Positions 1,140 to 1,460 of a stretch of 64,000 nt of DNA are shown here, in pieces. The notes below the pieces were generated by a model, which did not search any database, was not told the origin of the DNA, and saw nothing but the letters and a program-made list of their open reading frames with translations. This DNA is from an uncultured Flavobacteriaceae bacterium (GTDB taxonomy: Bacteria > Bacteroidota > Bacteroidia > Flavobacteriales > Flavobacteriaceae). The translations under genes and the position numbers were made by a program. How positions within the stretch are numbered: position 1 is the stretch's first letter; each line of letters starts with the position of its first letter. The DNA is taken from positions 62,001 to 126,000 of the forward strand of contig CANLXN010000001.1 in NCBI GenBank assembly GCA_947495135.1. Reading direction: 5' to 3'.

Positions 1140-1224
1140 ATTTCCAGTCCAGAGACCCCTAAATACTAAAGGGATAGGTAGAGAAATTAAAAAGCCTTGG
1201 CGCCAACCTGCCAAGGCTTTTTTG
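1140..1224 (+). ncRNA. Structured RNA element, copy 1, with own terminator
   Basis: This is the first of two copies of one element in the 509-base gene-free stretch between 969 and 1479. The conserved core reads CCAGTCCAGAGACCCCTA, then a variable loop, then AAAGGGATAGGT. It folds as ACC/GGT stacked on CCT/AGG with a one-sided GATA bulge. An outer ATTTC/GAAAT stem closes it (1140-1144 with 1183-1187). Directly after it is a 10-bp terminator hairpin (AAAGCCTTGG at 1191-1200 with CCAAGGCTTT at 1211-1220) and a T run. No open reading frame fits. It resembles the kind of element catalogued as flavobacterial structured RNAs (for example Flavo-1 or 6S-Flavo), but family membership has not been tested. 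The rest of the gap holds no other recognisable feature. Confidence 0.7.
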
Positions 1225-1377
1225 TTGAACTTATTTTACAAAATGAAGTTGTTGGTGGGGAAAAGAAAACGGTTAACCGAAAACCCTCGTTTTTCGTTTT
1301 TATTTATCGTTTTTGGCTCGTAAATTGAATTAACATTTAAAGTAGGTTGACTTACTACCCAAATAGAGTAAACCGCG

Positions 1378-1460
1378 TCTTTCCAGTCCAGAGACCCCTA
1401 TGTGTAAAGGGATAGGTGGTGAAAGAGTAAGGCCTCAGGAGAAATCTTGGGGCCTTTTTT
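1378..1460 (+). ncRNA. Structured RNA element, copy 2, with own terminator
   Basis: This second copy lies 238 bases downstream of the first. The core is nearly identical (CCAGTCCAGAGACCCCTA and AAAGGGATAGGT), while the apical loop differs in sequence and length. The outer stem is TCTTTC/GAAAGA (1378-1383 with 1421-1426). Compared with copy 1, one outer A-T pair has become C-G, a compensatory change that supports pairing in the RNA. It is followed by a 12-bp terminator hairpin with a GAAA loop (1429-1440 with 1445-1456) and TTTT. The terminator ends 19 bases before the stop codon of the convergent purB. The strand is set by the T runs. Function is unknown; a small RNA or the 3' part of one is most likely. 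Confidence 0.7.

Follow-up and report, generated by a model that had tools for sequence, protein, structure and literature searches.

A pair of predicted sibling small RNAs between a DUF4252 gene and purB in Flavobacteriaceae

Introduction

To our knowledge, few small RNAs (sRNAs) have been characterised in environmental flavobacteria. The closest described systems include the intergenic sRNAs of Bacteroides, such as BTnc231, which has a transcription start site and a terminator, and GibS of Bacteroides thetaiotaomicron (PMC7366714, excerpt), as well as the structured sRNA Rfp18 and other Indep TRs of Flavobacterium psychrophilum (PMC9723704, excerpt) and the Bacteroidetes RNA motifs Flavo-1 and 6S-Flavo, which were derived from comparative genomics (PMC2864571, excerpt). 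According to excerpts of PMC6847099 and PMC9723704, the Bacteroidetes -7 consensus is TAnnTTTG and Shine-Dalgarno sequences are lacking in the group; the SM5 box is given as TAnnTTGY in the excerpt of PMC9723704.

Here, we analyzed a stretch of 64,000 nucleotides from the Flavobacteriaceae genome G000 (C1:62001–126000; the window), in which the original prediction, made from the letters of the sequence, had placed two tandem copies of a structured RNA, each followed by its own terminator. Judging from sequence comparison across genomes, we consider it likely that the pair represents two sibling sRNAs, about 125–135 nt in length, that are transcribed separately from individual promoters to individual terminators and that probably act in trans.

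Results

Two copies of one element between a DUF4252 gene and purB

The pair sits between a DUF4252 gene (421–969, + strand; Pfam PF14060) and the convergent purB gene encoding adenylosuccinate lyase (1479–2822, - strand; PF00206, PF08328). This DUF4252 gene is the second of its kind and the last in an ECF sigma factor gene cluster with the order ECF sigma factor, small protein, DUF4252, DUF4252, where the small protein occupies the anti-sigma position and is without a Pfam match. A terminator scan places a terminator-like hairpin at 990–1020, after the cluster. On the + strand, the covariance model and cross-species pairing delimit the core of copy 1 at 1140–1187 (P1 ATTTC/GAAAT, conserved internal loop, inner stem) and that of copy 2 at 1378–1426 (P1 TCTTTC/GAAAGA). 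Only two ORFs of at least 40 amino acids overlap the element (40 aa on the - strand, 43 aa on the + strand).

Exact-string, whole-genome and covariance searches all return two places, confirming that these are two copies of one structured element. In the window, CCAGTCCAGAGACCCCTA matches exactly at 1144–1161 and 1383–1400 and, with up to three mismatches, at the same two places only (0.01 expected from shuffles); in the whole genome, both the 14-base CCAGTCCAGAGACC with at most one mismatch and the covariance model find these two places only. A second string common to both copies is AAAGGGATAGGT. The proposed tandem arrangement holds as well, with a copy-to-copy start distance of 239 bases, not the 238 originally given.

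When the window was scanned with 4227 Rfam models, none matched at its gathering threshold, and the same was true of eight related loci. The question of whether the element belongs to Flavo-1 (RF01705) or 6S-Flavo (RF01685) was thereby answered in the negative, as neither family reached its gathering score or appeared at all up to an E-value of 10. The best weak match, that of BTnc231 (RF04180) to copy 1, scored 29.9 bits and fell short of membership, for which the gathering score is 80.4; the terminator is the clearest part of this alignment, and copy 2 is not matched. We found no report of the element in the open-licence literature.

Compensatory change in the outer and inner stems of the core

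The original prediction folded each core into an outer stem, a middle ACC/GGU helix and an inner stem, with the same core carrying different loops in the two copies, the latter point being supported by our data. Across 17 sequences, 86% of the cells in this fold are paired, and 6 of 14 pairs show double-sided change, compared with an average of 3.1 in shuffles (6 was reached in 3 of 500). The outer stem is formed by ATTTC (1140–1144) with GAAAT (1183–1187) in copy 1 and by TCTTTC (1378–1383) with GAAAGA (1421–1426) in copy 2; in the 17 sequences, 76% of its cells are paired and five of its eight pairs have changed on both sides. The compensatory replacement of an A-T pair of copy 1 by C-G in copy 2 was borne out, and such change is also present across species, with one outer-stem pair being U-A in seven sequences and C-G in five. 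The inner stem shows a single double change, C-G to A-U, in genome G309.

While these two stems stand, with repeated compensatory change in the outer and one change in the inner, the middle helix fares less well. ACC/GGU pairs in all 17 sequences and varies in one cell only, but no double-sided change occurs among them, and the outgroups support a rival pairing, xxCC/GGUxx, which uses the same GGU strand with a partner 7 bases further 5′. Because both pairings use GGU, they are mutually exclusive. In five outgroup sequences, pairing reaches 96% for xxCC/GGUxx, with one double change, and 100% for ACC/GGU, with none; within the genus, xxCC/GGUxx is formed in part only. Single-copy folding does not discriminate between the two, and copy 1 favours another fold: folded in isolation, its core does not adopt the proposed structure at minimum energy (z = 0.24 versus shuffles), and the isolated copy 2 core yields z = -1.25. 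As the copy 1 core does not outperform shuffles, it is cross-species comparison, and not folding energy, that supports the structure. The count of G-U cells (4) versus A-C cells (6) does not decide the strand. At the level of sequence comparison, the core has the conserved secondary structure with compensatory change that characterises an intergenic sRNA gene, apart from the disputed middle helix.

The most conserved bases are located in and around the internal loops (AGAG; GACCCCU with AGGGAUAGGU), where they are near-invariant in the genus and mostly retained in the outgroups. This pattern is also what would be expected if the core were mainly a protein- or ligand-binding domain, that is, a sponge or stand-alone aptamer, so that the RNAs would sequester or sense a partner instead of base-pairing with mRNAs. 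We regard this as the strongest alternative, a serious possibility albeit clearly the less probable one. It agrees with the finding that the single exact pairing site, the complement of a part of the core (GGGTCTCTGG) taken as a target seed, is not enriched in the genome (one non-self place versus three control places). However, a conserved core could equally serve base-pairing, and the G205a copy is without part of the conserved loop.

Terminators, upstream box and putative promoters

As proposed, each copy is followed by a terminator-like hairpin. For copy 2, the scan finds it on the + strand (1429–1462, stem 1429–1456), together with a T run. The copy 1 hairpin (1189–1222), which is T-rich on both sides, was assigned to the + strand by eye, where GGCTTTTTT follows; the scan lists it on the - strand only, because the T run of the + strand is itself base-paired to an A run of the stem. 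This - strand listing slightly weakens the sRNA reading. When at least five T are required among the 10 bases that follow the terminator stem, 15 of 18 copies qualify on the + strand and 7 of 18 on the - strand, where some tails are cut short. A terminator of its own, as expected of an intergenic sRNA gene, is thus predicted for 15 of 18 copies. Given the - strand listing at 1189–1222, leftward purB transcripts could end there, in which case the purB mRNA would overlap copy 2 in antisense.

Two sequence elements recur upstream of the cores. In 17 of 18 copies, GAAAAC (GAAAAG in G201b) starts 91–101 bases ahead of the core window (300 shuffles: mean 0.36 copies, maximum 3), and a -7 box with at least five of six consensus bases lies 49–59 bases ahead of it, between the upstream box and the core, in 9 of 18 copies (shuffle mean 3.0; 0 of 300 reach 9). 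Both shuffle controls are generous, since the copies are related to one another and the position ranges were set with knowledge of the data. In window copy 2, the upstream box reads CGAAAAC (1278–1284, + strand). Copy 1 is the sole exception among the 18, with no CGAAAAC-like box at 91–101 bases upstream, and since it is without the box at that place, the two window siblings may be under different control. Neither window copy is among the nine with a good -7 box. Their putative promoters, both weak and on the + strand, contain the -7-like elements TATAGTTTC (1081–1089) in copy 1, 55 bases ahead of position 1136, where the core window starts, and TAAATTGA (1321–1328) in copy 2, which resembles the SM5 box; in copy 1, the best-scoring 8-mers of the -7 scan fall away from TATAGTTTC. 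In G205b and G156b, the best -7 box is found at other positions.

The same regions hold further repeats. In the b copies of G156, G200 and G205, an inverted repeat, CTGTATACC (CTGTATATC in G205) and GGTATACAG, flanks the promoter region (L010:1390–1455; b copies in L007 and L009), and G200a and G156a carry a TGTAGG...CCTACA repeat at the -7 region; either could be an operator. A TTTTTATTTATCG.TTTTGGC stretch upstream of window copy 2 (1290–1320) recurs in G204, where it lies within an inverted repeat (L013:1500–1560). Upstream of the ECF gene, a TGTAACA...TCGTC-like sequence is, by eye, common to three genera (L116:2690–2920, upstream of the window; L117:5730–5940, - strand; L118:720–980) and is perhaps an autoregulated ECF promoter. 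Shared control of the RNAs with the neighbouring ECF sigma factor was discarded as an explanation, as no such TGTAAC/CGTC-like sequence was seen at the RNAs by eye.

These flanking signals bear on whether the RNAs are separate genes at all, or processed from the 3′ UTR of the DUF4252 operon. The element does lie on the same strand, directly downstream of the operon, but the hairpin at 990–1020 separates the two, and most single copies carry both the upstream box and a terminator-like hairpin. We therefore judge a 3′ UTR origin to be unlikely and continue with the reading of two separately transcribed sRNAs.

A 5′ hairpin with a usually C-rich loop

Ahead of the core, folding and an arm-swap test point to a 5′ hairpin on the + strand, at 1106–1138 in copy 1 (C-rich loop) and at 1345–1374 in copy 2 (CCC in the loop). 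A run of 3 to 5 C, starting 15–21 bases before the core window, is present in 13 of 18 copies. In these 13, each copy's own arms gave a mean of -7.5 kcal/mol and swapped arms -4.1 kcal/mol, with 0 of 20000 permutations as good. Several copies have a weak hairpin (mean z -0.99), and the arms of G309 pair worse together than with those of other copies. The remaining 5 of 18, without a C run, are G200a, G205a, G156a (loop AGAGGAC), G203a and G201b. A pairing of the AGAGGAC loop of a-type copies with the core GUCC was considered and dropped, because G205a has lost GUCC yet retains the loop.

Separately kept paralogs in one subclade

In a FastTree phylogeny of 18 short sequences, one clade unites the a-type copies of G156, G200, G205 and G203, and another the b-type copies of G156, G200 and G205 (support 0.98 for each); the placement of W1, W2 and both G199 copies is not resolved in this tree. 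Because the copies group by position and not by genome, a and b are separately kept paralogs in the G156/G200/G205 subclade, as expected of sibling sRNAs, with a duplication that predates these species and copies that were not homogenised. A single match each was found in G263, G332, G309, G201 and G202, while G203 has one match plus, by eye, a second copy cut by the contig end.

Distribution across genomes and relation to purB

R1, a covariance model built from 13 genus copies, matches eight of the nine genus genomes, at 13 places that are the training copies themselves; the one genome without a match, G204, is 76% complete. Applied to 397 family genomes, R1 returned 12 matches at E ≤0.1, of which six were accepted (G000, G156, G201, G263, G332, G309). 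The outgroup members outside the R1 training, G263, G332 and G309 (E = 7.8e-15, 1.7e-7 and 0.003; one genome each), all carry the element between DUF4252 and purB. The weak matches L032–L037 were rejected as chance, having no purB C-terminus, no DUF4252 and, by eye, no terminator. A second model from 17 copies (R2), which G063, G263, G309 and G332 match by construction, gave seven matches in the 397 family genomes, all accepted and spread over four genera.

In a search around G309, three of 79 matched (G309, G063 and G427, the last outside the model, E = 7.7e-5), with no match in the fourth congener, G426; around G332, only G332 itself matched among 79, its three congeners being without a match. 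Across 395 genomes of the order, the three matches were the window's own genome and L114 and L115, two weak matches rejected as chance (no purB C-terminus, no DUF4252, no terminator by eye). In 199 family genomes, the exact pattern, which is too strict, found the window's own copies only. In every genome with an accepted match, the copies are confined to one locus.

We also examined 60 purB-adjacent regions (one of only 154 bases). DUF4252 is present on the expected strand in 49 of them, and an unfiltered R2 search found the RNA in two (G156 and G063); the next match, L055 (E = 0.14), and L104 (E = 0.69), both weak, were dropped. Two genera, represented by G040 (L058) and G168 (L052), have a longer gap between DUF4252 and purB in which, by eye, a small ORF resembling a membrane protein seems to take the place of the RNA.

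The neighbourhood could suggest that the element acts in cis on purB, by antisense or attenuation, with transcription either starting at the RNA promoters or continuing past the last terminator. The copy 2 terminator ends 17 bases from the purB end, and a purB C-terminus is present in 12 of 16 loci, with two genomes entering the 12 twice; of the four misses, two come from one and the same short contig and one is a stretch starting at the purB end. Copy 1, however, ends 257 bases from purB, and no antiterminator pairing was seen by eye. A purB-specific cis role appears quite improbable because, in G427, which retains both the RNA and DUF4252, about 1.4 kb of downstream sequence yielded no purB C-terminus, and because most purB-adjacent regions have the gene pair without the RNA (DUF4252 in 49 of 60, the RNA in only 2 of 60). 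Tandem copies might also suggest a mobile palindromic DNA repeat that has no function as RNA, but this is very improbable given the single locus per genome with an accepted match, the paired changes in the stems and the absence of the exact pattern from viral contigs.

Discussion

Comparison between genomes demonstrates, at the sequence level, a conserved structure, locus and upstream box, as well as separate paralogs in one subclade. From this pattern, we infer transcription, start sites, trans action and targets for two sibling sRNAs. Each gene would use its own promoter and terminator to produce a predicted transcript of about 125–135 nt, composed of a 5′ hairpin with a usually C-rich loop, the conserved core stem-loop and the terminator hairpin. 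The shared core would most likely provide stability, partner binding or a common pairing site, the variable loop of the 5′ hairpin would make sibling-specific contacts, and the most likely role of the RNAs would be trans-acting post-transcriptional regulation.

A bolder and rather doubtful reading is that the RNA is lineage-specific and uses its conserved core as a stand-alone domain to recognise a protein or a small molecule, with two siblings carrying this sensor or sponge core under different upstream control and with different 5′ loops (C-rich versus AGAGGAC). If true, a single signal would act on two sets of targets in bacteria without Shine-Dalgarno initiation. Because the family is compact and bounded, occupies a defined locus, includes species with one and with two copies and has an upstream box that is conserved, the predicted sibling sRNAs would be a convenient test case for sRNA action without Shine-Dalgarno sequences.

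We file the element as a probable new RNA family of a known kind, absent from the Rfam library searched. Like GibS, it would be a Bacteroidota intergenic sRNA gene; GibS, however, has a long single-stranded 5′ seed (PMC7366714, excerpt), whereas the 5′ part of our element is largely hairpin. It can also be likened, by description and not by sequence, to Rfp18 and the other Indep TRs as structured flavobacterial sRNAs (PMC9723704, excerpt). Finally, the pair resembles a known adjacent sRNA pair of another phylum, for which several targets are known: there too, with no sequence relation claimed, the two members are related and share a similar multi-hairpin fold with partly different sequence.
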